62,291 nucleotides of DNA from Alphaproteobacteria bacterium (GTDB lineage Bacteria; Pseudomonadota; Alphaproteobacteria; TMED109): NCBI GenBank assembly GCA_022819905.1, contig JAJEGJ010000071.1, positions 1 to 62,291 of the forward strand, read 5' to 3'. The notes under the pieces were generated by a model. That model saw only the letters and a program-made list of their open reading frames with translations. It did not search any database and had not been told where the DNA came from. A program made the translations under genes and the position numbers. Positions 29,957-53,831 of the stretch are shown piece by piece. Position 1 is the first letter of the stretch. The number at the start of each line of letters is the position of its first letter.

Positions 29957-30043
29957 CAACAAAGCCTCTCCCGCACGTGAACAGTCGGCACACCCATTGC
30001 CACTCGACGCGGCGCGCCGGCTCACAATGCCCCGGCGCCGGAG

Positions 30044-30581: not shown

Positions 30582-32168
30582 TCAGGCCGGATCCAAATAG
30601 ATGAGCGACAGCACGGAGCGAGCACGGCTCATGGCTACGTAATAGGCCGCCACGTTTTTCGTCGTCATGCTCGGGGCAGGAAGATCCAAGACCATGACGG
30701 CCTCATTTTCGAGCCCTTTGAATTCGTCAATCCTCGCGAATCCCACCTTGTCACCCGGCACGCTTCGCATGGAATATTCGTCCAGGCGCTGCACCCTGCT
30801 CGCTGCGCCGGGAGGCAAAAAGGCGACGGAGGAATCGGCAAGATCGAACGGAGACAGGATCGTGATGGAACCCGGGGCGAGCCCTCCCGAGTCCACGAGT
30901 TCGAAGATTTCGCGGGCGGCGTGCTTGGCCGAGTTGCGCTGACTTGATGCGGTGAAACAGCGCACGGCGGGGCCTGCCCCAACCCCTCGTACCCCCAGGT
31001 CCGCATCGAGGTTATCTTGAATCCATTCAAGGATGACCCGGGTGTTGCGGCAGTTGATTCGCAACGGCATCCGCACCGGGCACAATGATTCCAGGTAGCT
31101 CTTCGCGTTCCGCTCGAAGCGGGGCGTCAGCGACTGGTTGTTGAGATCATGGAACCAGCACCAGCGCCCCTCTTCGAGTCCGCCGGTGAGAACCTCGTCC
31201 AGGGTTTCGAGGAAGCCTGCCTCGAACAGGTCCTGGCCTTCGTCGACGATGAGCGCGTCGAAGCGCTCCAACCCGGCTCGGCAGCAATCGAGGCGAACGC
31301 CGTCCACAAGCGATACCGTGAGCCCGGGCATCGATAGCCGCGAAGCGAGGAAATGCCGTAGCCAGGGAGATCGGCATACCAAGGCAACCTGCAAGCCGTC
31401 CTCAGCCCAGCGCCGGGCCAGCCGTTCGGCGAGGAAGGTCTTCCCCGTGCCCGCACCACCGGCGCAGAGTACCCGCGGATTTGCCTCGGCCACATCCACC
31501 ATACGCATCTGGTCGTCGGTGAACTCGTCAACGCGGCGCCGAACGTCTTCCACCTGATCCAGTAGCGGCACATCCGCTTTGCTCGACGGTACGTCGATAT
31601 CGGGGCGGAGGTAGGCCTGGAGCGTGCTCACCGCCTCATCGTCGGACGGGCCGCTACTTCCTTCCCTCTCTCTCCAATACGCGAACAGGCGGCGCAACCA
31701 GCCTTCGAGGTCGCGGCTTGCACGGGCGTCGGCGACCATCGCCTGGTCCCACTCGGCCCCCTCGCTCCTGAAGTCGCAGTCTGGGAACAGCACCCCGTAG
31801 CCGACGGTGAACCGGTCGAGAACTCCGCGCGGAAGATTGGCGCGCAGGTCGTCCCTCAGTCCGCGGAGCGCCGTCTCCGCCTGCCGGAACGGACCCTCGT
31901 GGGATTCGACGGTCCGACCGAAGCGATCCTCGTACTGCCACACGCCGCCCTGACAGGCGACCCTTCCGCCCTTGACCTCGAGGACGTACAAACCCTCGGG
32001 ACCGCAGATGACGAAGTCGATCTCCGGGAACCGCTTGCGGGGATGCCGGGTGGGCTTCAGCGAGTGACAGGCCACATAGCGATCGTCGAACGCGCGGCGT
32101 AGCCGGTCGAAGATCCGTTTCTCCGCCGGGCTGCCGGTTTCGTAAGGTGAGCTCGGCACCATCTGCAT
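30582..32168 (-). CDS. NERD nuclease-domain SF1 helicase
   Basis: A 528-residue protein. Residues 12-120 form a NERD domain (AEKRIFDRLRRAF, then EIDFVICGPEGLYVLEVKGG, whose D and E-V-K fit a PD-(D/E)xK nuclease). Residues 220-528 are an SF1 helicase core: Walker A AGGAGTGKTFLAERLA, Walker B DALIVDEGQDLFE, and a motif VI-like YYVAMSRARSVLSL. It is the last gene of the drmA-drmB array, eight bases after the 531-residue gene. It could cut and unwind foreign DNA. The domain calls are firm; the defence role is inferred from neighbours. Confidence 0.85.
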   Translation of the reverse strand: MQMVPSSPYETGSPAEKRIFDRLRRAFDDRYVACHSLKPTRHPRKRFPEIDFVICGPEGLYVLEVKGGRVACQGGVWQYEDRFGRTVESHEGPFRQAETALRGLRDDLRANLPRGVLDRFTVGYGVLFPDCDFRSEGAEWDQAMVADARASRDLEGWLRRLFAYWREREGSSGPSDDEAVSTLQAYLRPDIDVPSSKADVPLLDQVEDVRRRVDEFTDDQMRMVDVAEANPRVLCAGGAGTGKTFLAERLARRWAEDGLQVALVCRSPWLRHFLASRLSMPGLTVSLVDGVRLDCCRAGLERFDALIVDEGQDLFEAGFLETLDEVLTGGLEEGRWCWFHDLNNQSLTPRFERNAKSYLESLCPVRMPLRINCRNTRVILEWIQDNLDADLGVRGVGAGPAVRCFTASSQRNSAKHAAREIFELVDSGGLAPGSITILSPFDLADSSVAFLPPGAASRVQRLDEYSMRSVPGDKVGFARIDEFKGLENEAVMVLDLPAPSMTTKNVAAYYVAMSRARSVLSLIYLDPA

Positions 32169-32176
32169 GACGGTGC

Positions 32177-33772
32177 TCAGCCCCGGAGCTGCTTGCGAGC
32201 CCTTCCCTCGGCCTTGGGATCGAGCCGCGTCTCTGCAAGGAGCTCAAGGAACCGTCCCCGATCGACCTCGGGCTCGATCCTGGGATCGCCGGGCAGCTCG
32301 ATGACCGTCGAGCCGCCCTTGACGGTGAGCCGGTACTCGCCCGGCCTGAGATTGATCCGGGTGTGAACACAGTCCCACTTCTGCGTTCTGGCGAGATCCA
32401 GCGCCGCGGACATCTGGCCCGCGCGCCAGGCTGACCCGTCGCCGAGCAGCTCCCGCAGCGGACGGATTCGCGCCGGAGGGTCGCCGAATTCGAGGCCCGT
32501 GGCCGCGATGCGATGAGACATTCGAGCCATGCGGTGGGAGACCGCAGCGGAGAGTCCCGGTTGGCCACGGAGACCAAGCGGCAGGCTCATCCACCCGTCG
32601 CGCACGCCGAACAGGATCGCGGCGGCCAGCCAGTCCGCCTCCCCCAGCCGGTCGCTCCGGTAGTCGAAGAGGTCGGCGCAGTCACGGCGAAGGAAGAACA
32701 ATGTCAGGGCATGCGCCAAGGCCGTATCGTGTCGGTCGAAGAGCTCGCTAGCGGTGGCTTCGGCGAGCCCGGTCAGGGATTCGAGGGTGTCCCGGAGCTT
32801 CTTGGCGCCCGCTTGCAATCGCGGATCGAGGATCGTCGCTGCTTGCGCAAGATGGTCCAGCAACACGTTCTCCGTGCTTCCGGCACGGCCGCTCTCCCTC
32901 CATTTCACCAGACACTCGACAGCTTCCCAGAAGAGCCGGGCCTGAAACCTATTTTGAAGGGCGATCCGGTCCGACTCGGCGTCCACGGGCGGCGGGAGCG
33001 GCGCCGTACCCTCTCCAATCCAGGTTTCGAGCCCGGCGAGAATCGGATGGTCGCCAGCCGGCACCTGTTCTCCGCCGGAAGGATCGAATGCGCCCCGGCA
33101 CGCATGAACCGCCCGCTCGCCGAGGTTGCCGAAGAGGAGCAGCATCGCCATGACGCCGCCGGCGGCGAGCGGACGTTCCAGGGGGACGGCCCGTTCGGAG
33201 GGTCCTTCGCCGGTCCGCCAGGGCGTGTCCGGGGGCTTGGTGAACAACAGCTTTCTCGTTGTGCGCCTGAAATCTTCCAGCGGCACGTTGCCGAACTCTC
33301 TCGCGTCCCGTTCGCATGTCCTCTTGTCGTCACTCGACTGAAAGACAATCGACTCGATTCGGGACGTGGGGAGGGGTGCCGGCACGAGGAGCACCCGTTC
33401 CGTTCCGTCGAGCTGGTCCGGGAAGTGCAGCTCCCTTACGCCATCCTCACTGATCGCGGCCAGTTTGCCCGACAGTCCGGAGAGGTCGATACGAACGATG
33501 ACCGCCTTGAGGTGCCCCGCCTCGCCGGTGGACAACGCGACCGCATCCCTCGGCGGTTTGTCGAGAAACAGGGCGATCCAGCCCGGGAAGCACTCGAGGG
33601 TATCCCGGTAGTACTTGTCACCGAACCCCGCGGGCGGCATCACGAGGCCCGCCGCGAGCATGTACATGAGGTTCAGGTGATTGGTGACGAGGAGCCCCGT
33701 CGGTGGGACCTTCACCGGCGCAGACGCGGGCGCGGAGGTGTCTACTGTCGTAAACAGGTCTGCGGTGGCCAT
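32177..33772 (-). CDS. large unknown protein of the DISARM-like array
   Basis: The 531-residue soluble protein has no motif I recognise. It opens MATADLFTTVDTSAPASAPVK and then LVTNHLNLMYMLAAGLVMPPAGFGDKYY. The N-terminal third is rich in beta-like hydrophobic stretches and the C-terminal part is helical, with basic patches (RTQKWDCVHTRINLRPGEY). It lies 191 bases after the SF1 helicase gene and eight bases before the NERD helicase gene, on the same strand, so it is part of the array. It might be a specificity or core structural subunit; this is inference from position only. Confidence 0.75.
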   Translation of the reverse strand: MATADLFTTVDTSAPASAPVKVPPTGLLVTNHLNLMYMLAAGLVMPPAGFGDKYYRDTLECFPGWIALFLDKPPRDAVALSTGEAGHLKAVIVRIDLSGLSGKLAAISEDGVRELHFPDQLDGTERVLLVPAPLPTSRIESIVFQSSDDKRTCERDAREFGNVPLEDFRRTTRKLLFTKPPDTPWRTGEGPSERAVPLERPLAAGGVMAMLLLFGNLGERAVHACRGAFDPSGGEQVPAGDHPILAGLETWIGEGTAPLPPPVDAESDRIALQNRFQARLFWEAVECLVKWRESGRAGSTENVLLDHLAQAATILDPRLQAGAKKLRDTLESLTGLAEATASELFDRHDTALAHALTLFFLRRDCADLFDYRSDRLGEADWLAAAILFGVRDGWMSLPLGLRGQPGLSAAVSHRMARMSHRIAATGLEFGDPPARIRPLRELLGDGSAWRAGQMSAALDLARTQKWDCVHTRINLRPGEYRLTVKGGSTVIELPGDPRIEPEVDRGRFLELLAETRLDPKAEGRARKQLRG

Positions 33773-33963
33773 CTAGACTCCGTGAGCGGCTGTCATCTCT
33801 GCGGTTGAGTCAAGTTCTGCGGAGCGGACCATACAAGAGAGCAAGGGCGGCTCGCCTGCGATCGAGGGCGAGGGCAAGACTCCCTCAATCCTGGGAGAAC
33901 CCGCCGGCCGACCAAGCGCCCGAACATGCACCACATGCTTCGTCGGACCGAGGCGAAGCCTCG

Positions 33964-35127
33964 CTACAGCTCCTTGCGCCGCAGCACGTTCTCGCTCCTT
34001 GGAAGAATGCGATCGATCTCCCGGCGTCCACCCCGCTTCATGAACAGGAACACCCGCTCCCTCGCACGTGCAATCATGACGTAGAAGAGCCGTTTCGCGA
34101 CGTCTGGATCATTCCGCCGGACGAAGTGCTCGTCGATGTCGGCGAGGACCGCCGTGTCGAACTCGAGCCCCTTGCAGGCCTGCGCGTTGATGACCAGGAT
34201 GCCGCCCTCGTCGAACGCGATGTCGGGACGGTTATCCCCGAAGAATGTCTCGATGGTGGGCCGCGGGTTGTCGAGTTCCGCCTCTACAGTTCGAAGCGCG
34301 TCCAGATAGCGCTCCCTGACTGAATTCTTGGGGGCGATGACCCCGATGAGCTGGCGTGGGTCTTGGTCCGCAAGACGAAGGATGCCCCGCGCGACCGCCT
34401 CCAGATTACCCTCGTCGTAGCGGTACAGCAGTGGAACAATCCCCGGCCCGGGCTTCGGCATCTCGGGCGGCGGGCTCGCTGGGTCGCCGGTGTAGAACTC
34501 CCGCGCAAGCCGCGCCACCTGATAGCGGTTGCGATAGTTCTGCTTGAGTTCGATTACCGCGTCGGCTTCGAGAGCCAGACAGTCCTGGATTTCTTTCCGG
34601 CTGCTGTTCGCCTCCTTGATCTGCTGGTTCTGGTCGGCGACGACGAAGAACCGGTCGAATCCGAGACCGATGAGCGCGCCGTAAAACATTGGCGGCATGT
34701 CCTGGCCCTCATCGATCACGAGGAACGGCCGCCGCCCGACTTCGCCGCCGGGTAACGCCTGGACAGCTTCCTCCACGCCAGCCCAATCGATCTCCTGATA
34801 GCCATTGTCGTTGGGCTTCCGCACCGGGACCGGTTGGTCTGCCACCTCCCGGAATACGCCTCGAAACCAACGGTCCCACGTCCGGCTGACGAGACCGCTG
34901 CCGAACAACTGGCCGCTCGCCTGATCGAGGAGGTGATTGAAGACCAAGAAGCGATACTCATCCTGCTCTCGCTGGTGCCGACGGGCGCGGAGGAGCGCGA
35001 GCACGGACTTCCCCGTTCCCGGGCCGCCGATGATGAGATGCTGCCCTTCCTTCGGCAGCGCGCGCACCCGTTCCTGCTCCTTGCTCAAATCCTCGATGCG
35101 CGGAAGCTCGAGCTTGCGCTTCGCCAT
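33964..35127 (-). CDS. UvrD-like SF1 helicase of the DISARM-like array
   Basis: The 387-residue protein is a compact SF1 helicase: Walker A IIGGPGTGKSVLALLRAR near residue 32, VIDEGQDMPPMFY as motif II, RNRYQVARLAREFY, and YVMIARARERVFLF as motif VI. It has no nuclease domain of its own. I placed the start at 35127, where the ATG overlaps the drmB TGA (ATGA). The coupling to drmB makes a joint role in the array very likely. Confidence 0.85.
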   Translation of the reverse strand: MAKRKLELPRIEDLSKEQERVRALPKEGQHLIIGGPGTGKSVLALLRARRHQREQDEYRFLVFNHLLDQASGQLFGSGLVSRTWDRWFRGVFREVADQPVPVRKPNDNGYQEIDWAGVEEAVQALPGGEVGRRPFLVIDEGQDMPPMFYGALIGLGFDRFFVVADQNQQIKEANSSRKEIQDCLALEADAVIELKQNYRNRYQVARLAREFYTGDPASPPPEMPKPGPGIVPLLYRYDEGNLEAVARGILRLADQDPRQLIGVIAPKNSVRERYLDALRTVEAELDNPRPTIETFFGDNRPDIAFDEGGILVINAQACKGLEFDTAVLADIDEHFVRRNDPDVAKRLFYVMIARARERVFLFMKRGGRREIDRILPRSENVLRRKEL

Positions 35128-36989
35128 CAGCCGGCATCCTCCACGAAGTCCGTCAACGACGGGATGTCGGGTGGGGCCCCCTTGACGAAGACCCGGTCGA
35201 GGAGGACGTTGCCGTGGGCGCAGCTCGGTTCCGGTACGAGGGCGCAGGCGTGACAGGCGGCCCGGTTGAGAAGGTCCGGACCGTGCCCTTCCTGCTCTGC
35301 GCACACTGGATCGAGCGAGCACCAGGAGGCCGCTTCGAATGCCCCGGTCAACAGACGGAGGAACCGGTCGGGCTTTGCTAGGTCCATCAGGCCACCGAGG
35401 GAACCCTCCTCGTCAGCAACTGCCACGTAGATGAGGATCCCCGCCATGGGTTCCTTGCCGGTCGCGCAGTAGATGCGTTCCTTCAGCGACGCGGCGGGGT
35501 AGCCCGCCTTGGCCTCGATCTCCCGGATCATCAGGTGGGCGAGCGTATGGCAGAGCAGGAAACGGGGCGTCACGTCGACATCGAACTCGGCGAAGCCCTG
35601 TCCGGCGCGATGGACATACCGTCGTGCAAACGCGTCTGCGCGTTCGCGGAGGGCATCGCCGGACTCCCAACGTTGCAGCACTTCTTCATCGAGGGTGAAG
35701 AAGAGGCCCTCTCCGTAAAGCTCAAGGGCGGGAAACCAGCCGCTCTCGCCCGTGAGATCCGGGGGCGCCTGCCGACCGCCCGCGCGTTGAAACCCGGTGA
35801 ACACCATGATTTCCTTCAATCGGTTGAGCCCAATGAGGCGTGAGACTGTGGTCGCAGTACGCCGGAGAAGCCCCGTTTCGAGCGCGTGACGGCCGGTTAT
35901 CCAGTCGCGCGTGTGGTGCTCGGTTACGAAGTCCTCTTCTTCACCGAGATTGGGAATCTCCTCGATCAGCGCCCGGTATTCGTCGATGAGGAGATCCTCC
36001 GAGGTGACCGCTCGGCCATAGAGGGGGTAGCCCCGGTCGATCTCCGAAATTGCCTCTTCGATATCGCCGTGAGTGCATCGATATTCGCCGGCGAGCCGTG
36101 CGATGACGTTCCGCCGCGCAAGCGGGCTTCGGGCACTCCGAATCCGCTGCTGGTTCCTTGAGCTCCCGTACAGACGGTCGAGGACAGTGCCTCGCCGGAT
36201 CCGCGACTCGGGCGGAATCACGAGCGCGGTCCGCGTGAGGGGAGAGTGCACTCGAACATCGTTGACCTCGATTAACCAACCCGGAGCTTCCGGAGATTGC
36301 GCCGGAGGTTCTCGCATCCAGGGTTGCTGCCAGGTGTGGGACGGAAACGGGATCAGGGGCAACGCGCCGGATCGGAGGCTTTCGTTCGATCCGCAGCGAG
36401 TACAGCGAAGCAACCGGCCCGTCCCCGTGTCGGTCAGTCGCAGGTAGGGTTGCGTCCAGTCGTGACTGCATTGACGCTGTTCCGGGTTCCGGGATTTTCC
36501 GTGGGCGAGATCGTGCCAAGGAACGTCGGCGAGATAGCCATCTTCGTGAACGAGAACCCAGGGCACTTGCTCGAGCCTGCCACCGCAATCGTTGCATTCG
36601 CCGGCGCTTCCTCCGCTCGTGCCCTCCTCTCCTTCCCGGCGGGCATCGCCTCCTGCTCGCAGGCTTCGCCACGGCGCCCGATGTAGCAAGCCACAACTCG
36701 AGTTCAGGCAGCGCATCCAGGTCGGAAAACGGAGCGCGGGGACCCACCCAACGACCGTCCCGTTCCGCCGCGCCGAACGAGGCGGGGCACAGAGCGCCTG
36801 TTCGATTCCAAGCGCGCTCCGCACCCGCTCCACATAACGAATCTCCCGGTCCATCGGATCGCTCCCCGGCCGGTCCCAGGTGCGAATGTCCTGGACCACC
36901 ATCAAGCTGTCTGGACCGCGCACGACAGCGCCTACCGCACAGTCGCGTAGGAGGTGCGAGAGCCGGACAGGAACGTACTCTTCAGCCAC
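35127..36989 (-). CDS. drmB: DUF1998 protein, DrmB-like
   Basis: A 620-residue protein with the layout of DrmB. The N-terminal part includes zinc-finger-like cysteine pairs (RCLNSSCGLLH; ECNDCGGRLE; RCTRCGS), and the DUF1998 domain in the last 200 residues has LLCHTLAHLMIREIEAK and SLKERIYCA, followed by CSLDPVCAEQ and a cysteine-rich end (AACHACALVPEPSC). DrmB is a core subunit of DISARM and forms a complex with the DrmA helicase. It follows drmA after 56 bases. Confidence 0.85.
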   Translation of the reverse strand: MAEEYVPVRLSHLLRDCAVGAVVRGPDSLMVVQDIRTWDRPGSDPMDREIRYVERVRSALGIEQALCAPPRSARRNGTVVGWVPALRFPTWMRCLNSSCGLLHRAPWRSLRAGGDARREGEEGTSGGSAGECNDCGGRLEQVPWVLVHEDGYLADVPWHDLAHGKSRNPEQRQCSHDWTQPYLRLTDTGTGRLLRCTRCGSNESLRSGALPLIPFPSHTWQQPWMREPPAQSPEAPGWLIEVNDVRVHSPLTRTALVIPPESRIRRGTVLDRLYGSSRNQQRIRSARSPLARRNVIARLAGEYRCTHGDIEEAISEIDRGYPLYGRAVTSEDLLIDEYRALIEEIPNLGEEEDFVTEHHTRDWITGRHALETGLLRRTATTVSRLIGLNRLKEIMVFTGFQRAGGRQAPPDLTGESGWFPALELYGEGLFFTLDEEVLQRWESGDALRERADAFARRYVHRAGQGFAEFDVDVTPRFLLCHTLAHLMIREIEAKAGYPAASLKERIYCATGKEPMAGILIYVAVADEEGSLGGLMDLAKPDRFLRLLTGAFEAASWCSLDPVCAEQEGHGPDLLNRAACHACALVPEPSCAHGNVLLDRVFVKGAPPDIPSLTDFVEDAG

Positions 36990-37045
36990 GGATCTTCGCT
37001 GTCCTCCCGTTCACCGCCGGAGCTTCGCACTGCCGCATCGCCGGG

Positions 37046-40000
37046 TCATCGACCGAGCGGCCAATCATGGACCTTGAGCGACCCGGTGCCTTCCACGTTC
37101 CGCATGGAGTGCAGGGTTGCCCACAGACCGGGGCGCGACTCTCCGTGCGTGTAGAGCAGCCGGTCGGCGGCCTTGTCGCGTTCCGGTGCCTCGTAGTTGA
37201 GTTGCCGGCTCCCCTCCTCGCAGCGCCGTGCCTCGTCGTGCCACTCTTTGGCGAGACGGTCGACGTGAGCGGCGACGTCGGGGCCCAGACCCATCCCGTC
37301 CACGGCAAGCTCGCAACGCCGCTTGAGCCCGGCGACGACCGATAGGATTGCTGGTGAACTCCGGTCGAAATTTCCCGCCGACTTGTTGCTTCCCAGTCCG
37401 GGGCAGGCATGCCGGATCGCAATGACAAGGGCGGCGTGGAGGGCGCGTGACCGAACCTGGTGGGTAAAGGGGGTCACGCTGCTCGGCTCCACGAAACGGT
37501 AGAACGATTCGTGGTAGGGACGAAAGCTCTCGTAATGGGAAAGGCTCCGGGCCTGGTGGCGGTAGTAGTTGGCAAAGACCAGACCCGGAACGTCGGCTCG
37601 GCCGACCCGGCTCGTCGCCTGGATGTACTCCGCAGTGGTGAGAGGCTGGCCGTTGACGATCATGAGCGCGAGGCGCGCGACATCGAGGCCGACGGACACC
37701 ATGTTTGTCGCCAGCACCGCGTCGAGACAGTTCTCGTCGTCCTGAGAAAGCGCGAGCCGCAGGAACGTCTCCGCGTTTTTCTCGGGGGTGGGGTGGCTCG
37801 TGAGCTGGGCGATTCGCGTGTTCAAGAACCGTTTGGCGGTCTCGTCGGATACGCTGTCGTGGGCGTCCGATCCGCCGCCGGCTGCAATGTCGCGCCCCTC
37901 CTCCCGCTCGCCGGCGAGCCATCGCCCGAAGTCGCGTACGTCGGTCACGAAGGCGTTGTGGCTGTTGCCGACCCCCTTCAGGCTGCCGTGATACACCACC
38001 TGCGTCCACCACGCATCGAGCAGCGTGTCCCGGTCTGCGTCGCCCTCGAACACCGCGCCCGGGGCGGCAAGCAGCACGGCGGCGAGCGGTGCGAAACAAT
38101 GCTGCTGATCGAGCATGGGGGCGAGGTAACCGACGTAGCGCCGCCCTGGTCGCTCCCGATCCGTCCGCGCAAACCAGGAGTCGTCGTGGGACAGCCCAGG
38201 CGGCGGGAACACAGCAAGGTCCCGCGCGTAGAGGCGCCGCACCTGCTCCTTCGCCATGCGGATGGTCGCGGTGGACGCGACGTACTTGGGGCGAACGCCC
38301 CGGCGGACAAGCAGGGTCTCAAGTCCTGCCTCGTACAACCCGGCGACCGAGCCCAGGGGGCCGGTGATGAGGTGCAGCTCGTCCTGGATGACGAGTTCCG
38401 GCGGACGCGATCCGGTGCCAACACCGAAGAATGCGCCGGTCCGTTCTTCCCAAGCGACTCGCGCGAACTTGTCGATAGTGCCGATGAGGAGCGATGGCGG
38501 GTGCTGGTACAGCGCCTCGTCCACCACGTTGCAGGGAAGCGGCCGCTCGTCCGCGCCGAATTCGCACCCCTCATCGACGCAGTGGAAGTGGAAATCGTCT
38601 TCCTCGGCACGGTAGCCGCGGTCGGCATCGAACGGTGACCCGCACCAGGGACATCGTTCCAGCAGCATCCCGTATCGCGCCTCGGCATTGCCGTTGCGGA
38701 TCTCCTCAACGAGTTCCCTGGCCTGATGGATGCCGTTGGGGCTGATCTCGCGGCCGACCCAGATGCCGATGTCGATGGGGGCTTCGCCGAGCCGGCCGGT
38801 GTCTCGCCGGCGGATCAGCTCCAGGGCGCACACCATGCGCGCGGCGCGTTCGAACTGCTGGCGGGTCAGCAGGCGCAGCGTGTAGCGCATGAACGCAACG
38901 GTTCCACCTCCGGTGTCGGGGTACTTGAGGCGCCGCCAGACAATGAGGAACGCGATGAGGCCGAGGTACGCCTCGGTCTTGCCGCCGCCGGTGGGAAACC
39001 AGATGAGGTCGAGCACGTCCCGATAATCGTCGTCCTCGCGAATCGCGGACTCCATGGTCGTGAGCAGGAAGGCCAGCTGGAAAGGCCGCCACCGGTGGCC
39101 GCCAGCCCCGGTCTCCTTGCCGGCAACACGGTCGATCTGGCCCATCTGGTCGAGCATCGCCCGGTTCGCAAGCCGGAACGACTCGGCCGCGATTGGGTCG
39201 GTGCGCAGCATCTCGATGCACCCGCGCATCCGCTCGAGGGCGGTCTGCATCCGATCGCAGATTCGATCTGCGGGAGCCCGTTCACCCGGAGTCGGAAGCG
39301 TGGCGGCGGCTCGCCGCTGCTCCGCGACCCAGTCGGAGTAACCGTCGGCGAACCGGGCAAGATCGTCCGCCATCGGTGAATCGGCGAGCCTGGCAAGGTC
39401 GAATACCGAGTCGTCGCCACCCGTGTCGACGGTCATCATCGGCGCCTCGGCCTCCGGCATGAAGTCGGACCAGACTCGCGCCGGACGGCCCGGACCCACC
39501 GCCCAGTCCGCAGCCGCGCCGTGGCCGACGGCGTAGATGCGCTGCTCCCGGTACTGGAGTTCGAGTTCCTGCTCTTCGTCCGTGAGCAGACTCGGATCAA
39601 TGCGTGGATACTCGACGAGTTCGCCGCTCTCGACCACACACTCAACCCGCGCCTCGAACAGCGACTTCCCGACCCGGTCGCGGGTCCGGCTGTACGATGG
39701 TGCGTCTGGGTCCAACACTCCGCGATTGCACAGGGTGATGGTGAGAATGAGGCCTTTTCCATGCGATCGTGCGCGAACGTCTATTCCGGCACGCCCGTCC
39801 CAGAACGGCTCCCCAGAAATGCCACGACCCGCGCCCGCCGACCATGTGACGGTGTGCTCCGGAAGCGGGGTTCGGACGTACTCTCGAAGCACGAACTTGC
39901 CCCCCTCGCCACGCTCCCCGGTGCCCCTATAGGCGGCTGCGGAGGCGGTAATCGCAAGACGCGCATTGCCGCGAACGTAACAAGAGAAACCGACCGCCGA

Positions 40001-40261
40001 CGGTGGTACGTACCGGCGGCGGCGGGCCGGCCGTGCAAGTGGCGCCTCTTCGGATCCGTCATTCCCGAACGGTGCGTCTTCAAGCTCGTCGAGGAGGGCA
40101 GGATCAGCCTCTTCCTGGCCTGAGGAAGCGGGATCGATTGGATGCAGCACACCGATCGGATATCGATCCAGCGGGGATACCCGGAGACTCCCCTCGTGGG
40201 TCGGACCAATGAGCTGGCGGCGCGACCAATTGACAAGTCCTTTTCTGGCTTCGACGTACAT
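37046..40261 (-). CDS. drmA: DrmA-like SF2 helicase of a DISARM-type system
   Basis: The 1071-residue protein has an N-terminal region of about 370 residues (starts MYVEARKGLVNWSRRQ) and a helicase core. Motif I is WFPTGGGKTEAYLGL near residue 420, a DExH-type motif is VIQDELHLITGPLG, motif III is VASTATI, and motifs V and VI are ATNMVSVGLDVARLALMI and QATSRVGR. This matches DrmA, the translocase that partners DrmB in anti-phage DISARM. Length and order fit. The methyltransferase and the separate DrmC phospholipase-D protein of classic DISARM are absent from this operon. Confidence 0.87.
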   Translation of the reverse strand: MYVEARKGLVNWSRRQLIGPTHEGSLRVSPLDRYPIGVLHPIDPASSGQEEADPALLDELEDAPFGNDGSEEAPLARPARRRRYVPPSAVGFSCYVRGNARLAITASAAAYRGTGERGEGGKFVLREYVRTPLPEHTVTWSAGAGRGISGEPFWDGRAGIDVRARSHGKGLILTITLCNRGVLDPDAPSYSRTRDRVGKSLFEARVECVVESGELVEYPRIDPSLLTDEEQELELQYREQRIYAVGHGAAADWAVGPGRPARVWSDFMPEAEAPMMTVDTGGDDSVFDLARLADSPMADDLARFADGYSDWVAEQRRAAATLPTPGERAPADRICDRMQTALERMRGCIEMLRTDPIAAESFRLANRAMLDQMGQIDRVAGKETGAGGHRWRPFQLAFLLTTMESAIREDDDYRDVLDLIWFPTGGGKTEAYLGLIAFLIVWRRLKYPDTGGGTVAFMRYTLRLLTRQQFERAARMVCALELIRRRDTGRLGEAPIDIGIWVGREISPNGIHQARELVEEIRNGNAEARYGMLLERCPWCGSPFDADRGYRAEEDDFHFHCVDEGCEFGADERPLPCNVVDEALYQHPPSLLIGTIDKFARVAWEERTGAFFGVGTGSRPPELVIQDELHLITGPLGSVAGLYEAGLETLLVRRGVRPKYVASTATIRMAKEQVRRLYARDLAVFPPPGLSHDDSWFARTDRERPGRRYVGYLAPMLDQQHCFAPLAAVLLAAPGAVFEGDADRDTLLDAWWTQVVYHGSLKGVGNSHNAFVTDVRDFGRWLAGEREEGRDIAAGGGSDAHDSVSDETAKRFLNTRIAQLTSHPTPEKNAETFLRLALSQDDENCLDAVLATNMVSVGLDVARLALMIVNGQPLTTAEYIQATSRVGRADVPGLVFANYYRHQARSLSHYESFRPYHESFYRFVEPSSVTPFTHQVRSRALHAALVIAIRHACPGLGSNKSAGNFDRSSPAILSVVAGLKRRCELAVDGMGLGPDVAAHVDRLAKEWHDEARRCEEGSRQLNYEAPERDKAADRLLYTHGESRPGLWATLHSMRNVEGTGSLKVHDWPLGR

Positions 40262-40739: not shown

Positions 40740-43700
40740 TCAACCCGCGACCACTTTCCCCGCCTGATAAAGCCATCCGGGCATGGGGCGTTCCAGCTCC
40801 CACAGTATTTTCATGGGCCGTTCCGATTCATGACTTCTGTAATGGGCACGGCCAAGGCAGTGGTATGGAAGCGTAACCCCCCGGCCATCCCTTTTGCGTT
40901 CGCGCACGAACAGGATGACATTCGTGCCACGGACCGGTTGTTCGACGTAGCGGCGTCCGGTTGGTGTAGCCGGTGACGCGGTATTCTGCGACTCCCAGTG
41001 AAACAGGGTCGGCGAGATTGGGTAGTCCGCATAGCGCGTCGTCGGAGAGTAGTCCCTGTCCGACTTCTCCAGCGTGACAAACAGCAGATCGGTTTGCGTC
41101 GCCTCGTTCCAAAGGACGCCACCCTGGGGATAAACCAGCGCACCGCGCTTATCGGTGTGCCCGTGTGCAGCAACGATCTCCCCAAGGGAATAGGTGGAGT
41201 GGCTTGCTAGGGGAACTTCGCCGGCAGGATCAAGTGGTTGCGAAACCGTGCGGATGCGATCGGCGAGAATTTCCAGGAGGTCGACGATCTCACGACGAAA
41301 ATCCGGAGACCCACGGACCCTTTCCAGGATCTGGTCCGCCTCGTCTATCGGCTGACGACGACCACCCAGAACAGCAAACAACATCAGGCCCAGGCGATAT
41401 TTGCGGCCAGAGAGTCCTGAGAATTGGTCGAAATGATCCGCCTCCAACATGTCCCGCCACGCTTCGATCCGCTCGCGATCGTCCACGTGGATCAGCCGAC
41501 CGATTGCGCTGAGGAGCAAGTCATCCACAACGCTCTGCTCGAAGCCTGCGCGCCGGCGAAGCTCGGTAAAGCAGTGTCCTGAACCGGGCCGTGCGTAGAT
41601 CTCTTCGAGTTCGACACCGGCGTCGTCCATGAAGCTGCGGAGCCGTGATTCAGGTCCGAGGGCACGCAAGTCATCGGCGAGACGTCTACGGGCATTTTGC
41701 ACCGCGTCGCTCAGATTGCGTAGTACCGTCTCCTTGGCAATACGGTCGAGCTTGAGCGCACATCCCGGTGGGAGCAAGGGGAAATCCGCCTCAACGGCGC
41801 GCCTGACCTGATGGCGAGTGCCCCCCAACAGGGCCCGATAGCGCACGTCGTACCGGTACTCACGCCGCACTTGGCCCACGAAATCGAGGACGGTCAGGAC
41901 CCGCTTCCCCTCGGCCCAGCGCAGCCCTCTTCCCAGCTGCTGGAGAAACACTGTGGCGCTTTCGGTCGGCCGCAGCATGAGCACGGTGTCGACTTCGGGA
42001 AGATCGACACCTTCGTTGAAGAGATCGACCGCGAAGACGGCTCGAATTTCGCCCCGCCGCAATCTCGCGAGCGCTGATCGCCGATCATCCCGCGGTGTGC
42101 TGGCGTCCAGCGCCACCGCCGGGTAGCCAAAATTCGTGAACTGCCCCGCCATGAAGTGGGCGTGACCGATGCCGGCACAGAATCCCAGCGCCCGCATTTC
42201 GTGCGGGTCCGTCACAAATTCCTCAACAGCCTGGCGGACCCGAAGCGCTCGAACATGATCGCCCGTAAACACGTTATCGAGCTCACCTGGCACATATCGT
42301 CCACGCGCGAACCGTACATTCGAGAGATCGGTCGCGTCGTTCACCCCGAAATAGTGAAACGGGCAGAGCAGTCCCTGGTCGAGGGCATCCCAGAGCCGGG
42401 ATTCCGACGCGATGCGGCCATCAAACCACTCCAGCACCGACTGGCCGTCCGCGCGCTCGGGCGTAGCCGTGAGCCCGAGAAGGATCTTCGGCTTCAGACG
42501 CGACAGCAGACGCGCGTAGCTGGCAGCTGCCGCATGATGAAACTCGTCCACAATGACCACGTCGAAATCGTCCGGATCGATGTCGTCGATCCGATTGGCA
42601 AGGGACTGCACCGAGGCAAAGACGTGGCGACCAGCGCGTGGACGCTCGCCGGCGACCAACAGCTCGCCAAACCCCGGCTCGCGCAGCACGAGCTGAAACA
42701 CCTGCTGGCTTTGACGGAGGATCTCTTCACGGTGCGCGACAAAGAGCAGGGAACCGCCCACACCCTGGTCACGCAGCTGCTTGAAATCGAATGCCGCGAT
42801 CCAGGTTTTGCCGGTGCCGGTCGCCGCGACCACGAGATTGCGGTGATATCCGCGCAGGCGCTCCGCTTCGAGGGCCTCCAGGGCGACAGCCTGGTGAGGC
42901 TTCGGTGCGACATCGACCAGAAGAGACAGCAGGAGTCCGTCGTCTTTGCCGGTTCCGCCGCGCTGTCGCGAGAGCGCCCGGTCGAGCCGCTCACTGTCAC
43001 GCTGGGGCGCATAGTCCTCGAACTCGGGCTCTTGCCAGTACTGGTCGAAGGTCGCTGAGAACCGCTCTATCACGTCCGGATTCTCAGCCGCGCTCACGCG
43101 CACGTTCCATTCGAGGCCGTCGACCTGTGCCGTATGAGTCAGATTTGAGGAGCCGATATAGGCGGTGTGCAGACCGCTGTGGCGATGGAACAGCCACGCC
43201 TTGGCATGAAGCCGGGTCCGCGCGATTTCGTAGGAGACCTTCACTTGCGCGCCGAGCTCGACAAGTGCGTCCAGCGCGCGACGTTCGGTCGACCCGGTAT
43301 AGACGCTTGCGATCACGCGCACTCGTGCACCCTCGCGCACGCGCTCTTCGAGCTCAGAACGGAACAGCCGCAACCCTGAGTGACGCACGAACGCGCAAAG
43401 GAGTTCGATCCGATCAGCGCTTGGGATCTCCCGTGCAATCTCGCTCGCGATCTGGACGTCGCGCCGTCCGTTTACGAGCAGCCCGGTCTGACGAAGCGAG
43501 AGCGTTGGGCGGGAGATTTTCGATTGCGTTCCGCCCAATACTCGGTGTTCGACAGCTTCCAGGAGCAGGCGCGCGGCGTCTGCGACACGGTCATCTGCCA
43601 TCACGCCATGTTCTTCGAGCACCTCCACCAGTCGATTGGCCAAGGCGACCTGATTGGCCGCCTGAGTGCCCTTTCCTTCCGGTATCCCTTCGAGTGCGCG

Positions 43701-43865
43701 TCGCAGAAGGTGATAAATGTGGCGAGCTAGGAACTCTGGACGGACAGTTGCGTCCGCCGCTGCGACATCCACCCACCAACCTTCCGCGGCACGGGCATCG
43801 ATTTCTGTCTCCAGAGCGGAAGTCAGCAGATCTTCGTAAAGCCCGGAATGCAGTCGACGCGTCAT
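40740..43865 (-). CDS. phospholipase D - SF2 helicase - DUF3427 fusion
   Basis: A 1041-residue protein. Residues about 170-330 form a phospholipase D domain: TRLHAKAWLFHRHSG with H-x-K, followed by YIGSSNLTHTA. Residues 370-760 are a DEAD/H helicase: VVAATGTGKTWIAAFDF, VIVDEFHHAAAASYARLL, LGLTATPERADG and FAVDLFNEGVDLPEVDTV with QQLGRGLRWAEGKRVL. DUF3427 follows to the end. Stand-alone relatives are known in defence islands. The start at 43865 overlaps the preceding small gene (ATGA). It may supply the PLD activity that drmC gives in DISARM. Confidence 0.9.
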   Translation of the reverse strand: MTRRLHSGLYEDLLTSALETEIDARAAEGWWVDVAAADATVRPEFLARHIYHLLRRALEGIPEGKGTQAANQVALANRLVEVLEEHGVMADDRVADAARLLLEAVEHRVLGGTQSKISRPTLSLRQTGLLVNGRRDVQIASEIAREIPSADRIELLCAFVRHSGLRLFRSELEERVREGARVRVIASVYTGSTERRALDALVELGAQVKVSYEIARTRLHAKAWLFHRHSGLHTAYIGSSNLTHTAQVDGLEWNVRVSAAENPDVIERFSATFDQYWQEPEFEDYAPQRDSERLDRALSRQRGGTGKDDGLLLSLLVDVAPKPHQAVALEALEAERLRGYHRNLVVAATGTGKTWIAAFDFKQLRDQGVGGSLLFVAHREEILRQSQQVFQLVLREPGFGELLVAGERPRAGRHVFASVQSLANRIDDIDPDDFDVVIVDEFHHAAAASYARLLSRLKPKILLGLTATPERADGQSVLEWFDGRIASESRLWDALDQGLLCPFHYFGVNDATDLSNVRFARGRYVPGELDNVFTGDHVRALRVRQAVEEFVTDPHEMRALGFCAGIGHAHFMAGQFTNFGYPAVALDASTPRDDRRSALARLRRGEIRAVFAVDLFNEGVDLPEVDTVLMLRPTESATVFLQQLGRGLRWAEGKRVLTVLDFVGQVRREYRYDVRYRALLGGTRHQVRRAVEADFPLLPPGCALKLDRIAKETVLRNLSDAVQNARRRLADDLRALGPESRLRSFMDDAGVELEEIYARPGSGHCFTELRRRAGFEQSVVDDLLLSAIGRLIHVDDRERIEAWRDMLEADHFDQFSGLSGRKYRLGLMLFAVLGGRRQPIDEADQILERVRGSPDFRREIVDLLEILADRIRTVSQPLDPAGEVPLASHSTYSLGEIVAAHGHTDKRGALVYPQGGVLWNEATQTDLLFVTLEKSDRDYSPTTRYADYPISPTLFHWESQNTASPATPTGRRYVEQPVRGTNVILFVRERKRDGRGVTLPYHCLGRAHYRSHESERPMKILWELERPMPGWLYQAGKVVAG

Positions 43866-44164: not shown

Positions 44165-44284
44165 GCCCTAGTCAACCAGATTTGTCTCCCGCGTCCAAAG
44201 TAGATGCGTGCTTTGTGGACGGTACCGCCGTTTTTTGGCGACTTGTCACTGCAGCAGCGCGCTACACACTCCACGAGAGTTCGG

Positions 44285-44312: not shown

Positions 44313-44335
44313 GGTGTCATTTTATGGGGTGTCGC

Positions 44336-44557
44336 ATGCCGCGTCCACGGGGAAAGAGGACACCTGTGCGGCTGTCGGTCGGTCTAGATCCGGCGAGTTA
44401 TGCAAGGCTCTCTCGGCTGGCTGACAGGCATGGAGTGTCTTTGGCTTGGATGATTCGTAGGGCGATCGCCGATCTCATCGAGCGACAGCAGGAAAACGAT
44501 CAGATGGAGTTGCCATTACAGCGGCGCGCGGAAACCGACCATCCGGGACGGACATGA
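44336..44557 (+). CDS. ribbon-helix-helix regulator upstream of sspA
   Basis: A 73-residue protein with the CopG/Arc fold: TPVRLSVGLDPASYARLSRLADRHGVSLAWMIRRAI gives the beta strand and two helices. It would bind DNA as a dimer. I chose the ATG at 44336, preceded by GGGGTG; an ATG at 44324 would be nearly at the predicted transcription start. Its TGA overlaps the sspA ATG (ATGA), so it is the first gene of the ssp operon and probably its repressor. Confidence 0.75.
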   Translation: MPRPRGKRTPVRLSVGLDPASYARLSRLADRHGVSLAWMIRRAIADLIERQQENDQMELPLQRRAETDHPGRT

Positions 44558-45714
44558 GAGAGCGCATCTACCTCGATTATCAGGCTACAACGCCGCTCGA
44601 CTCGCGAGTTCTTGACGCGATGCTCCCATATCTCGAAGACAGGTTCGGAAACCCACATTCGGAGCATCTCTTCGGCTGGGAAACTGCTGAGGCGGTGGAG
44701 GAAGCGGCAAGAAATGTCGCTGCCCTCATAGGTGCCGATCCCGGCGAGATCATCTTTACCTCCGGTGCGACCGAAGCCAACAATCTGGCAATTCAGGGAA
44801 TCGCGCGAAGTAACGGGCGACGCGGCAATCACATCGTCACGACGGCGATCGAACATAAGTGCGTGCTCAACACAGCGCTGTCCCTTTGCAATTCGGGCAT
44901 CACGGTAGACGTTATTCCAGTGGACGAGCGTGGCTTGGTCGATCTGGCGGCATTGAAGACGACGGTGACGGACGCCACCGCCATGGTCTCGGTGATGACA
45001 GCAAGCAACGAAATTGGAACCGTGCAACCGATCGCAGAAATCGGTGCCTTCTGCAGAGAACGCGGGGTCGTGTTTCACACGGACGCAGCGCAGGCGGCAG
45101 GCAAACTTCCGATCGATGTCGCAGTGCTCAACATCGACCTGCTCAGCCTATCGGGCCACAAGTTCTATGGGCCGAAAGGGATCGGGGCGCTCTATGTTTC
45201 TCGACACTGCCCTGTTCCTCTTGCGCCCCTCATAATTGGGGGCGTGCAGCAGCAGGGATTAAGGGCTGGTACGGTCGCTCCGTTCTTGTGCGTCGGTCTT
45301 GGAGAGGCTTGCCGTATCGCTGGTACAGAACTCTCGCAGGAACGAGCCCATTGCGAGGCCCTACGCGACTCGTTCTGGTCGATCTTGTCTTCGTATCTGC
45401 CGGACGCCGCGATCAACGGTGACATGGTCCGCCGGCTCCCGCACAACTTGAACATCGTTTTCCCGGGGACCGACGCGGATTCGCTACTGGCGTCCGTACA
45501 GGGAGAAATCGCTGCTTCGACTGGGTCGGCCTGTAACGCAGGGTTGATTGAGCCGTCCTACGTGCTCCTAGCGCTCGGTTTGACGCTGGAAGAAGCCAAC
45601 AGCTCGATCCGCTTCGGATTTGGCAGGTTCACGTCCATGGACGATGTGGAACGGGCCGCCATGCTTCTTGCCGACAAGGTAGGACATTCTCACCGAACCT
45701 TCGCGGTTGCCTGA
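44554..45714 (+). CDS. sspA: SspA-type cysteine desulfurase (phosphorothioation)
   Basis: The 386-residue PLP enzyme is IscS/DndA-like. The PLP lysine is in LSGHKFYGPKGIGALYV near residue 203, and the catalytic cysteine is in STGSACNAGLIEPSYV near residue 327 on the long group I loop. In DNA phosphorothioation such enzymes supply sulfur to the ATP-pyrophosphatase-like subunit. The gene order here (sspA, DUF4007, ATPase, PAPS reductase-like) is the reason for the ssp name, since the sequence alone could be any IscS-type enzyme. Confidence 0.85.
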   Translation: MRERIYLDYQATTPLDSRVLDAMLPYLEDRFGNPHSEHLFGWETAEAVEEAARNVAALIGADPGEIIFTSGATEANNLAIQGIARSNGRRGNHIVTTAIEHKCVLNTALSLCNSGITVDVIPVDERGLVDLAALKTTVTDATAMVSVMTASNEIGTVQPIAEIGAFCRERGVVFHTDAAQAAGKLPIDVAVLNIDLLSLSGHKFYGPKGIGALYVSRHCPVPLAPLIIGGVQQQGLRAGTVAPFLCVGLGEACRIAGTELSQERAHCEALRDSFWSILSSYLPDAAINGDMVRRLPHNLNIVFPGTDADSLLASVQGEIAASTGSACNAGLIEPSYVLLALGLTLEEANSSIRFGFGRFTSMDDVERAAMLLADKVGHSHRTFAVA

Positions 45715-45772
45715 GGTGTATGTCGATGGAGAGTGTAACTCGCCATGGGCATGACATGGCTCAATCTTGAAC

Positions 45773-45789
45773 CTGGACGACTCGTCCAG
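45773..45789. promoter_or_regulatory. near-perfect palindrome before sspB
   Basis: CTGGACGA, one base, then TCGTCCAG, placed two bases before an AGGAG ribosome binding site and 12 bases before the sspB start. In RNA this would fold into a hairpin next to the ribosome binding site; in DNA it is symmetric enough for a dimeric regulator. It may set sspA and sspBCD levels separately. Confidence 0.5.
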
Positions 45790-45801
45790 TAGGAGACACC
45801 C

Positions 45802-46749
45802 ATGCTACGCGGGCCCCTCGGCGAACCCGATTTCAAGGACCAACAATTTTCAGGACATGAGACCTTCCCGCTCCGACACCTCTGGTTGCGGAAGGCCTAT
45901 GACACTGTCGCCAAATGCGAGCGGGGTGCTCCAAAGAAAATTTTCTCGGAGCCCGAGGCGATTATTACGTTCGGCGTTGGAAAGAACATGGTCGCGTCTA
46001 TCCGGCATTGGGCCATTGCCTGCGAGATTATCGAAGAGGATGGCGACAAGTACCGTCCGACCGAAATTGGGACGTTTCTGTTCGACAAAGGCACCGGGCG
46101 CGATCCCTTCATGGAGACCCCGGCGACAACATGGCTGATGCAGTCGATGATCGCCGGGACCCCCGCGCGGACGACGACTTGGTATTACGCCTTCAATCAC
46201 TTTGCAGCCCAAACCTTCGAACGCGATTCTATCACCACGCCAATCGGAGAACTGTGCAAAGAACGGGGATGGCAACGGACATCGACGGCCACGATCAAGC
46301 GGGATGTCGAATGCTTCATCAGAAGCTACGTTCCCCGAACCACCTCAAGGTTCTCTGACGACAGCATGGAACCAGTGCTCGCGGAACTGGGCTTAATTCG
46401 TCCCGTGAGCAGCAAGTTGTTCGAGTTTCGCAGGGGTCCTAAACCAAACCTGCCCGACGGGGTATTCCTGTTCGCGCTCGCCCGGTTCTGGGATGCGCAC
46501 GCACCCACCCAAAATACTATGGCTGTCGAGAGCCTAGCTTACGAGCCAGGCTCTCCCGGGCGCGTGTTCAAGCTCGATGAATATTCCCTGATCGAGCGGC
46601 TAGCACGAATCGACGATAGTTCTCGCGGACAATTCGCTTGGTCGGATACTGCGGGGGTACGCTATGTCGCCCGGAGGGTCGAGGGCGTGGAGCCGATGGC
46701 ATTGCTCGACCTAGCGTACCAAATTGGCACGCAAGGGAGGGTCGCCTGA
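45802..46749 (+). CDS. sspB: DUF4007 protein, SspB-type
   Basis: A 315-residue DUF4007 protein. Conserved blocks include FSGHETFPLRHLWLRKAYD, FGVGKNMVASIRHWAIA and TWYYAFNHFAAQTFERDS. In SspABCD systems SspB is a DNA-nicking subunit that makes the break at which sulfur is placed in one strand; that role comes from published family knowledge and is not visible in a motif here. It is followed one base later by the ATPase gene, so sspB and sspC are coupled. Confidence 0.85.
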   Translation: MLRGPLGEPDFKDQQFSGHETFPLRHLWLRKAYDTVAKCERGAPKKIFSEPEAIITFGVGKNMVASIRHWAIACEIIEEDGDKYRPTEIGTFLFDKGTGRDPFMETPATTWLMQSMIAGTPARTTTWYYAFNHFAAQTFERDSITTPIGELCKERGWQRTSTATIKRDVECFIRSYVPRTTSRFSDDSMEPVLAELGLIRPVSSKLFEFRRGPKPNLPDGVFLFALARFWDAHAPTQNTMAVESLAYEPGSPGRVFKLDEYSLIERLARIDDSSRGQFAWSDTAGVRYVARRVEGVEPMALLDLAYQIGTQGRVA

Positions 46750-46750
46750 A

Positions 46751-49700
46751 ATGATGCTCTCCGACCAGGTCAACGTTGCGCGCCGGTTTCAGCGTTCGAT
46801 ACGGGTGGACACGGACTTGGGCAGGGCCGCTGCTCTCAACGGCTTCGTCTGTCACGGCTCCAACAAGTTCGCCCTAGAGACCATGGCTAGGCTCATGGTG
46901 GAGACCGAACAGAGGGCCTTTACCTGGACCGGCCCATATGGCGGCGGCAAGTCCAGTTTGGCGGTCGCACTGTCCGCCTCGATCAGCGGCAACGCGAATT
47001 CGCGGGGCTGGGCCCACTCGCTACTTGGCGACGTACCCGAATTCGACCGGGCCTTTCCTGTCGAAATGGAAGGCTGGCTTGTGGTCCCCTTGGTCGGCCG
47101 GCGAGGCGATCCAATCGAAGACCTCCGCGAGGCGATTGCCATCGCGGTGGCTTCGGAGAGGGGTGCTCCAAGGACTCGGCGCCGCAAGACCGACAGGTCC
47201 GGCCGCGATGTGATCGAGCGGCTCCAGAGAGAAGCAGAGGCACGTCCGAAAGGTGGCGTGCTCGTTCTCCTCGACGAGATGGGCAAGATACTGGAGGGCG
47301 CCGCTGCCGGAGGAACGGATATCCACTTCTTCCAGGAACTCGCGGAGGCGGCCGGGCGATGCAAGGGACGACTGGTCATTCTCGGCATCTTGCATCAGGC
47401 GTTCGAGCAATACGCTTCGCGGCTGGGTCGAGAGGTACGAGACGATTGGGCCAAAGTTCAGGGACGCTACGTCGATATTCCGATCGTGACGGCCATCGAC
47501 GAAGTGATCGACCTTATCGGACGGGCGGTCATCTCAAGAGGCAAACATCCGGACAGCATGGCGGTTGCCGAGAGTGTGGCCAAAGCCATCAGCCGACGCC
47601 GGCCCGGCACCCCCGACGACCTGGCGGTACGTCTCGATGCCTGCTGGCCATTACACCCGGTAACGGCCACCCTGCTGGGGCCGATGTCCCGACGCCGCTT
47701 CGGTCAGAACGAGCGGAGTACGTTCGGCTTCTTGGGATCGAGTGAACCCGACGGCTTTCGCGAGTTCCTTCGCGCAGTCCCTGCGGCTAGCGGAGAGACT
47801 TACGACCCTGCGCGGCTGTGGGAGTATTTGAGAATCAATCTTGAGCCTACAATTCTCGCTTCGCCAGATGGACACCGCTGGGCGCAGGGCGCCGAGGCAG
47901 TGGAGCGATGCGAAGCCAGGGGATCGCCGCAGCATATCCGCCTAGCTAAGACCATCGCCCTTGTAGATCTGTTCCACAACGGCTCCGGCCTGGTAGCGGA
48001 GCGGGCTGTCCTTCGCGCCAGTGTCAACGACGTGGCCGAGAGCTTGGTTGACCAAGCGCTCGAAGATCTTGAGAGCTGGTCGGTGATCATCTTCCGGAGA
48101 CATTTGGATGCATGGGCGATCTATGACGGGAGCGACTTCGACATAGTGGAAGCCGTCGAAGTCGCGATCGCAAGCGCATCGGGCCTGAACCTGGACCGGC
48201 TTTCGCGTCTGGCGGATTTGCAGCCTCTGTTGGCGAAGGAACACTACTACCGGACAGGCACACTCCGATGGTTCGAAACGGACATCGTTCCGCTCGCGAA
48301 CGCATCCGCGGCAGTTCGGTCTTTCGAGCCACAGAACGGAACGTCAGGTAAATTCCTTCTGGCAATGCCGGAGGGCGACGAAACGCAGCGGGAAGCAGAG
48401 GAAATGTGCCGCGCCCTCTCGGAAGAGGCGGGAGACTGGCCCGTGGTCATTGGCATGTCCCGCAACCCCAAACTTATTCGCGAGCTTGGAGGCGAGTTAG
48501 TAGCCTTGGAATCCGTGCACGCGAATCGGCCTGAGCTGGAAGGCGACCATGTGGCACGGCGGGAAATCTCGGCTCGGATTGCCGCGGTGAGCGCACTGTT
48601 GGAGGAGGAACTAAAGACATCTTTCAACGAAGCGACTTGGTATTTACGCGGAAAGTCCCATGACGAAGCGGATACGCCGACATTGGCGCGGCTCGTGTCA
48701 CGCATCGCAGACGATACCTTCCCGGAGACGCCAATCGTTCATAGCGAACTGGTCAACCGCGAGAGGCCGTCCAGCAACAGTCAGGCCGCCGTGCGGCAGC
48801 TTCTTCACGCGATGGTCGGTCAAGGCACCGTAGAGCACTTGGGGATCGAGGGCTTTCCGGCTGAACGGGGCCTCTACAGCACCATTCTAGAAGCAGCCGG
48901 TCTACACGGTCCAACCAAGACAGGACCGGATTTCAAGGCACCGAGCGGGCGCAGTCCTGTCGGCAGAACCTTTCTCCCGATGTGGCGGAAGGCCGAAGAA
49001 CTGCTGGAGACGGCAGAAGAGCCTGTACCTTTGTCCGCGCTCTATGCGATATGGACGGCACCTCCCTACGGCATCCGCCGCGGTCTGCTTCCCATTCTCG
49101 CCATGGCCTTCATATTGGCGCACCAGTCGTCAGTGGCCGTGTATGCCCAGGGGGTCTTCCAGCCTAACGTCAACGACTTCGTGGCGGATCGCCTACTTCA
49201 AGACGAAGGGCCAATCTCTCTGCGTTTCGTTGTTCGCCGGTCGGATAACGAGCAACTCATGGCCGACCTCGCGCAGACGGTTGGCAGCATTACGGGAACG
49301 ACACCGGTAGCGGAGCCCTTGGCGGTCGCCCGTGCGTTGGTCGAGTTCGTGTTCCGGCTTCCCGCCTGGACGCGACGAACATCTTCCCTGACCAAGCCCA
49401 CGAAGGATGTGCGACGGGTGTTGCTGAATGCGAGCGACCCGCATCGGACTCTCTTCGTAGACCTGCCTCACGTCGCGACAGCTTCTGCAGGCTATCCGCC
49501 GGCAATCGCGATCCGTGAGGCGCTCGGTGAGTTGGCGAACGCCTACCAAGGCATGCTGGAAGGCCTACGTGATCGAATGTTGAATGCCCTGGGACACAGA
49601 GACAGTGATCTCGACGAGCTTCGCCATCGTGCACGCGTCGTGTCGGGAGTAAGCGGCGATCTTCGGGTTGAAGCCTTCGTTACACGTATCTCCGAATTTT

Positions 49701-53780: not shown

Positions 53781-53831
53781 GAGTTATTCCCTTGCATCGG
53801 TATGTATTCCTCGTTGATGCGTCTAGACTTG

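Follow-up and report, generated by a model that had tools for sequence, protein, structure and literature searches.

The closest described relatives of the locus analysed here are the DISARM systems (classes 1 and 2) and, beyond these, ARMADA type II and TALON. The DrmAB complex of Serratia DISARM is autoinhibited by a trigger loop and activated by 5' single-stranded overhangs; it needs ATP and contacts a base through V1296, and DrmC is reported to be dispensable in the same system (PMC9142583). In ARMADA type II a YprA-type helicase is followed by a GajB-like UvrD helicase, and in TALON a YprA helicase is combined with a NERD-type nuclease (PMC12458937).

The array considered here consists of five head-to-tail genes on the minus strand at 40261-30582, encoding DrmA, DrmB, an SF1 helicase, a protein that we call X, and a NERD-SF1 helicase fusion. 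It lies in a window (the whole stretch of DNA analysed, 62,291 nucleotides) that is part of contig 16 of a 3.6 Mb draft genome. With DISARM it shares DrmA and a separate zinc-binding DUF1998 protein, DrmB, in one operon and with the same motor motifs. Unlike DISARM, it has neither a DrmMI or DrmMII methylase, nor DrmC, nor DrmD or DrmE; it adds the SF1 helicase, X and often the NERD-helicase, and its DrmA is shorter and falls under the equivalog cut-off. The succession of a YprA-type and a UvrD-type helicase recalls ARMADA type II, but that system combines a BrxHII helicase and a PglX methylase with a YprA encoded by one gene, and its GajB carries a RelE-like domain (PMC12458937), whereas the array has none of these and keeps DrmB separate. 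The combination with a NERD domain recalls TALON, but domains of the TALON signature genes TPR-CSD and TBP (PMC12458937) do not occur in the five array genes, and the NERD of the array is fused to an SF1 helicase. That fusion has the same architecture as the DRT-associated protein described by the PADLOC model RTasNERD-Hel, but the array contains no reverse transcriptase. Finally, the predicted fold of X would unite the halves of a DarTG or ART-ARH toxin-immunity pair, DarT-like ART and ARH, in one chain; in contrast to such pairs, the catalytic motifs are degenerate, there is no macrodomain antitoxin, and X is tied to DrmAB. A reading made earlier from the sequence alone (the sequence-only reading) had proposed a distinct DISARM-related system, and this is borne out: methylase and DrmC are absent, the genes are co-conserved, no model in PADLOC-DB 2.0.0 covers X, and no description of the gene set was found in the openly searchable literature, so that an earlier description elsewhere is possible.

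Gene content of the array

Table 1. Features of the array and its neighbours, in window coordinates
Feature	Position	Strand	Basis
DrmA-like YprA-family SF2 helicase, 1071 aa	37046..40261	-	PADLOC, NCBIfam and 7s9v matches
DrmB, DUF1998/MZB partner of DrmA, 620 aa	35127..36989	-	DrmB_fam cut-off passed
UvrD/GajB-like SF1 helicase, 387 aa (likely start)	33964..35127	-	motifs, homologue alignment
X, 531 aa, predicted ART + ARH fusion	32177..33772	-	AlphaFold model and replicate
ART-like domain of X (predicted), residues 18-182	33227..33721	-	VIA, replicate Foldseek, hhalign to Deinococcus X
ARH-like helical domain of X (predicted), residues 196-426	32495..33187	-	VIA and replicate
Small C-terminal beta/alpha domain of X (predicted), residues 465-531	32180..32380	-	predicted secondary structure
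NERD domain fused to SF1 helicase, 528 aa	30582..32168	-	Pfam, PADLOC
HKD/PLD nuclease - SF2 helicase - DUF3427, 1041 aa (neighbour, not array part)	40740..43865	-	
SspABCD phosphorothioation genes (neighbour, not array part)	44554..50937	+	

The identification of DrmA and DrmB in the sequence-only reading stands. DrmA matches the PADLOC DrmA profile (E = 1e-195) and the solved Serratia DrmA 7s9v (1.6e-120), with the motor motifs GGGKTE, QDELH, SATI and SRVGR intact. It scores below the cut-offs of the NCBIfam DISARM_DrmAS equivalog (785.6 bits vs 950) and of DrmAL (500 bits vs 999) and is still a clear homologue. Its similarity to the Serratia protein starts at residue 218 (Serratia 370), past the trigger-loop region. 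The idea that the methylation-contact valine has been lost was rejected: V1056 aligns, by inference, with Serratia V1296, and the valine is kept, so that this position argues neither way. DrmB exceeds the NCBIfam DrmB_fam cut-off (305 vs 240 bits) and conserves the zinc cysteines of its DUF1998/MZB domain. In one of the other loci described below (L016, 3639-6888) the drmA gene falls into two ORFs, through a frameshift or an assembly error, and the rest of the array is intact.

The UvrD-like helicase coupled to drmB had also been noted before, but its start needs correction. As listed, the SF1 helicase ORF begins with GTG at 35322 and overlaps DrmB by 195 bases. The ATG at 35127, which shares the sequence TGATG with the stop codon of DrmB, is likely the true start, giving a product of 387 aa, because several divergent loci align to the long version only from about residue 60-73. 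The Walker A (GGPGTGKS) and Walker B (DEGQD) motifs are present and, with KGLEFD, are conserved over 25 homologues.

As the sequence-only reading had stated, methylase and DrmC are missing. Pfam, PADLOC and NCBIfam profiles find no methylase among the five genes and PADLOC profiles no DrmC; the DrmC profile PDLC02595 finds no match in the whole draft genome of the window, and control genomes gave matches. No methylase was seen beside DrmA or X in the scanned flanks of other loci.

Conservation and mobility of the cassette

Used as the only query against 84,980 species genomes, X recovered 20 other distinct loci in Alphaproteobacteria, Gammaproteobacteria and Acidobacteriota, at 42-92% identity. 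DrmA, DrmB, the SF1 helicase and X are collinear on one strand in all 20, with the first three immediately upstream of X, a count that takes in two loci with DrmA cut by the contig and one copy broken by insertions, and the genes are mostly joined by overlaps or short gaps. Since this arrangement accompanies X at every locus that the query fetched, the co-occurrence of the four genes is far beyond chance. Such co-conservation of the 531-residue gene with drmA and drmB in other genomes had been proposed as a check on the sequence-only reading. For the five genes taken as one set it is the four-gene core that held, while the NERD-helicase proved inconstant (see below).

When 347 Acidobacteriota genomes were searched by profile, seven proved to carry X. 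Three of these had come up in the scan above; among the newly found ones, the three loci fetched with their flanks have the same four genes. Among 289 genomes of the window's class the X profile has no match beyond the window itself, and neither tblastn nor a pattern scan found X in plasmids, phages or viral contigs. In a phylogeny based on DrmB rather than DrmA, whose tree is distorted by a mistranslated row (L088), the X-carrying loci form a single clade with support of 100/100.

The flanks differ between loci and contain mostly ordinary genes (amidase, LptD, DNA ligase, trehalose enzymes) or other defence genes; being unrelated, they indicate that the cassette travels as a unit. The window and the nearest relative (L002) have 13.3 kb in common, 92% identical as DNA, and this stretch takes in the HKD-SF2 helicase gene that lies upstream of DrmA. 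One closed genome (G297) carries a broken second array copy with insertions in DrmB and X (L020) beside an intact one (L011). A gene for a PIN-domain (VapC-like) protein stands directly upstream of drmA in several loci (3156-3584 in both L005 and L007, 2802-3206 in L012, 7321-7734 in L105), and is found there both in this cassette type and in a classic DISARM operon.

On plasmids the wider family can be followed through the SF1 helicase, which occurs in just four of 72,556 records, always directly after DrmB. These four, with the order DrmA-DrmB-SF1 helicase, come from Deinococcus gobiensis, Photobacterium (two) and Streptomyces, and none of the operons holds a methylase or DrmC. Plasmid P4 of D. 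gobiensis has the order NERD-helicase, DrmA, DrmB, SF1 helicase and a 576-residue homologue of X. Its NERD-helicase matches the profile of the window family (HMM 5.2e-90) and the ART domain of its X aligns with that of the window (hhalign E = 5.7e-8), so that all five parts recur in another phylum. The two Photobacterium plasmids continue after DrmA, DrmB and the SF1 helicase with a protein of 467-483 residues in the position of X, a barely recognisable homologue of marginal similarity (hhalign E = 0.013), and the Streptomyces fungicidicus plasmid has the first three genes (DrmA, DrmB and SF1 helicase). NERD-helicases also accompany DrmAB in other plasmid arrays (Rhizobium rhizogenes, Azospirillum, Rhodococcus opacus), whereas classic DISARM records have DrmD, a methylase and, in some, DrmC.

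Predicted folds of protein X

The sequence-only reading had called X a protein of unknown family. It is right that X by itself matches no Pfam, PADLOC or NCBIfam profile, but structure prediction now offers two folds. The Pfam family 2CompART is weakly matched by 10 of 19 X homologues (best 8e-4); in 200 genomes the same profile gave zero matches, controls included. Profile comparison of X with PDB sequences gave chance matches only, and a search of a viral structure library no match below E 0.001. An AlphaFold model of X built with 19 homologues (pTM 0.82) resembles known structures in two parts, the first domain matching Thermus DarT 7omx/7omw (VIA Z 10.1, rmsd 3.4 over 148 residues) and the second ARH3 6g1q (VIA Z 14.6, rmsd 3.8 over 211 residues), with the ARH family occupying the first rows. 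A model of a homologue 43% identical to X repeats both matches, that to DarT with Foldseek E = 6.8e-5 and that to ARH3 with VIA Z 10.9; it shares most of its alignment rows with the first model and so is not fully independent of it. These are matches of predicted models at 8-16% identity, and the ARH assignment is somewhat less certain than the other, ARH being a helical fold and easier to match. X is thus predicted to join a DarT-like ART fold to an ARH/DraG fold, and it seems unlikely that two halves from ADP-ribose metabolism would be found twice in one chain by chance. The family link rests on the fold, because direct hhalign comparison of the X domains with DarT and ARH family alignments gave nothing significant.

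The residues expected for catalysis are degenerate in both folds, which suggests that X may be a pseudo-enzyme, a sensor or adaptor whose domains bind or gate without catalysis. At the position of the DarT catalytic Glu, placed by motif alignment and not by superposed coordinates, V, L, A or G stands in 19 of 19 members; at position 125, 16 members have an acidic residue and three have P or V. Of the ARH motifs, GD, TDDT and DxDT are each absent or changed: no TDDT occurs, and the DxDT position mostly reads ExDW/R/C. T30, N31, N34, L35, Y37, G51, D57 and a PAPLP stretch are invariant, which places the N-terminal domain under strong constraint, and position 53 is K or R in every member.

The NERD-helicase as an optional partner

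A fusion of NERD and helicase had been read as the last gene of the array, and both parts are recognized. The NERD domain, at about 31830-32135, scores 1.8e-9 in Pfam (38.6 bits vs a cut-off of 22.1) and its PD-(D/E)xK-type residues E49, D51, E64 and K66 are invariant; the SF1 helicase part matches PADLOC RTasNERD-Hel at 2.5e-35. The gene follows X in 11 of 20 loci, and also in the window. In two further Acidobacteriota (L086 and L087) a homologue (E about 1e-34) instead precedes DrmA, as it does in D. gobiensis, and in at least five loci with both flanks covered (L008, L012, L014, L016 and L017) it is locally missing; at others the contig ends too early to show it. The NERD-helicase has thus switched from one end of the array to the other and is a frequent but optional partner, which leaves four genes as the obligatory core. 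The proposal that NERD is the nuclease of the system therefore survives as far as a plausible nuclease is concerned, and fails for NERD as the sole one. In one locus (L010, 11572-13152) the NERD-helicase has kept the NERD residues and lacks Walker A and DEGQD, leaving a nuclease minus its motor.

Neighbouring genes

The HKD-SF2 helicase gene at 40740-43865 adjoins DrmA in the window and in the nearest relative only, where the copy (91%) occurs in a genome without SspD. It is a candidate phosphorothioate-linked or type IV restriction enzyme, and would be a better candidate than the array for a phosphorothioate-linked role, because HKD-SF2 helicase fusions are known as phosphorothioate-linked nucleases (PMC10853773).

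Two related stretches of the window, 18630-19100 and 30000-30431, hold paralogous genes of about 100 residues, one apiece, and both match the same part of the nearest relative at 80-91%. They bracket about 11 kb beside the array and may be a duplication or the edge of a mobile element. At the level of whole regions, 1-30000 and 51000-62291 match PADLOC candidate models (PDC-S36 at 1e-111, PDC-S01 at 7e-80, mad3, SoFic and AriA), so that putative defence genes are plentiful in the region. In 43000-62291, starting near the Ssp genes, GC drops from about 65% to 50-57%, which suggests a separate acquired segment; beyond SspD, at 51342-53780 on the minus strand, it holds a gene of 812 residues with no Pfam match.

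Discussion

With a little more confidence than doubt, we read the array as a mobile, methylase-free DISARM-related defence cassette in which X would act as a gate and the NERD-helicase as an optional nuclease module. The scheme takes gene set, order, co-inheritance, the motor and NERD residues and the lack of methylase and DrmC from sequence and the folds of X from prediction, and infers every biochemical step and the anti-phage role. By analogy with Serratia DrmAB, DrmAB of the cassette would load on single-stranded or frayed ends and on replication intermediates of incoming DNA, and translocate, and the co-translated SF1 helicase might extend the unwinding. X could be the gate of the complex, with DNA ends, NAD+/ADP-ribose or ADP-ribosylated DNA as its ligands, and would then replace methylation and the N-terminal loop as the control point. 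Where present, the NERD domain would cut the exposed DNA; in loci that lack it, a replication block or a host nuclease would have to serve. A more specific proposal, that ADP-ribose chemistry or the sensing of ADP-ribose or NAD+ by X replaces methylation as the self/non-self or activation signal, seems to us doubtful; the cues for such sensing could be, for example, ADP-ribosylated phage DNA or changes in NAD+ during infection.

Other explanations start from parts of the same evidence. DrmA and DrmB are clear DISARM relatives and broken copies such as that in L020 exist, as would be expected of an ordinary DISARM decaying after loss of its methylase and DrmC. Decay, however, would not put the same two new genes in place of the lost ones, and the same four genes recur with intact motifs in at least three phyla, with the X-carrying DrmB proteins forming one supported clade, so that a decaying locus is quite improbable. 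A cassette devoted to DNA repair or directed against plasmids rather than phages is less strained, and we nevertheless think it unlikely: the repair proteins MrfAB belong to the YprA family of helicases (PMC12458937), and classic DISARM also hinders conjugation according to work cited in PMC9142583, but the DrmA and DrmB profiles put the cassette on the DISARM side of the family, DrmB is separate as is typical of DISARM, and the surroundings are rich in defence genes. X might also be an active ADP-ribosyltransferase-hydrolase that marks or attacks DNA, in which case the cassette would link a toxin of the DarTG kind to the motor of DISARM. The DarT-like fold in two models, the invariant T30, N31, N34 and Y37 and the constant K or R at position 53 would fit, as would an Azospirillum plasmid (L100, 13270-15671) in which a gene annotated as DarT-family, with its AE motif and with no annotated DarG, comes after DrmA-DrmB-NERD-helicase. 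What makes activity improbable is the uniform V, L, A or G at the catalytic Glu position, the P or V at residue 125 in three members and the loss or alteration of the ARH motifs.

The sequence-only reading had also suggested that the array takes the phosphorothioate marks of the neighbouring SspABCD genes as its self-signal. In the window the start of these genes is about 4.3 kb upstream of DrmA, and of the 18 other genomes with X eight have an SspD homologue. In each of the eight, however, SspD is on a different contig from X, so that linkage to the array is found in none of the 18; most of these are drafts, where the absence of SspD is the weaker evidence, but the closed genomes G295, G297 and G303 likewise give weak matches or none. 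The nearest relative has no SspD either, and its DNA identity to the window stops at 43985, between the array and the Ssp genes, which are further separated from the array by the HKD-SF2 helicase gene. Self-recognition through phosphorothioate marks is therefore highly improbable, and this part of the earlier reading is not supported.

The favoured reading, a mobile cassette with X as gate, brings in one new element, the predicted DarT-like ART and ARH folds of X seen in AlphaFold models of two divergent members. Such a fold tied to a DISARM motor would join two defence themes that are unlinked in the searchable papers, and the map of YprA-family defence would be widened by a type with its own SF1 helicase pair. 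Because the DrmAB motor is retained here without a methylase and with one conserved protein in its stead, the cassette would be a natural system that separates the question of self and non-self in DISARM from methylation, and in which gating by a single partner can be tested.
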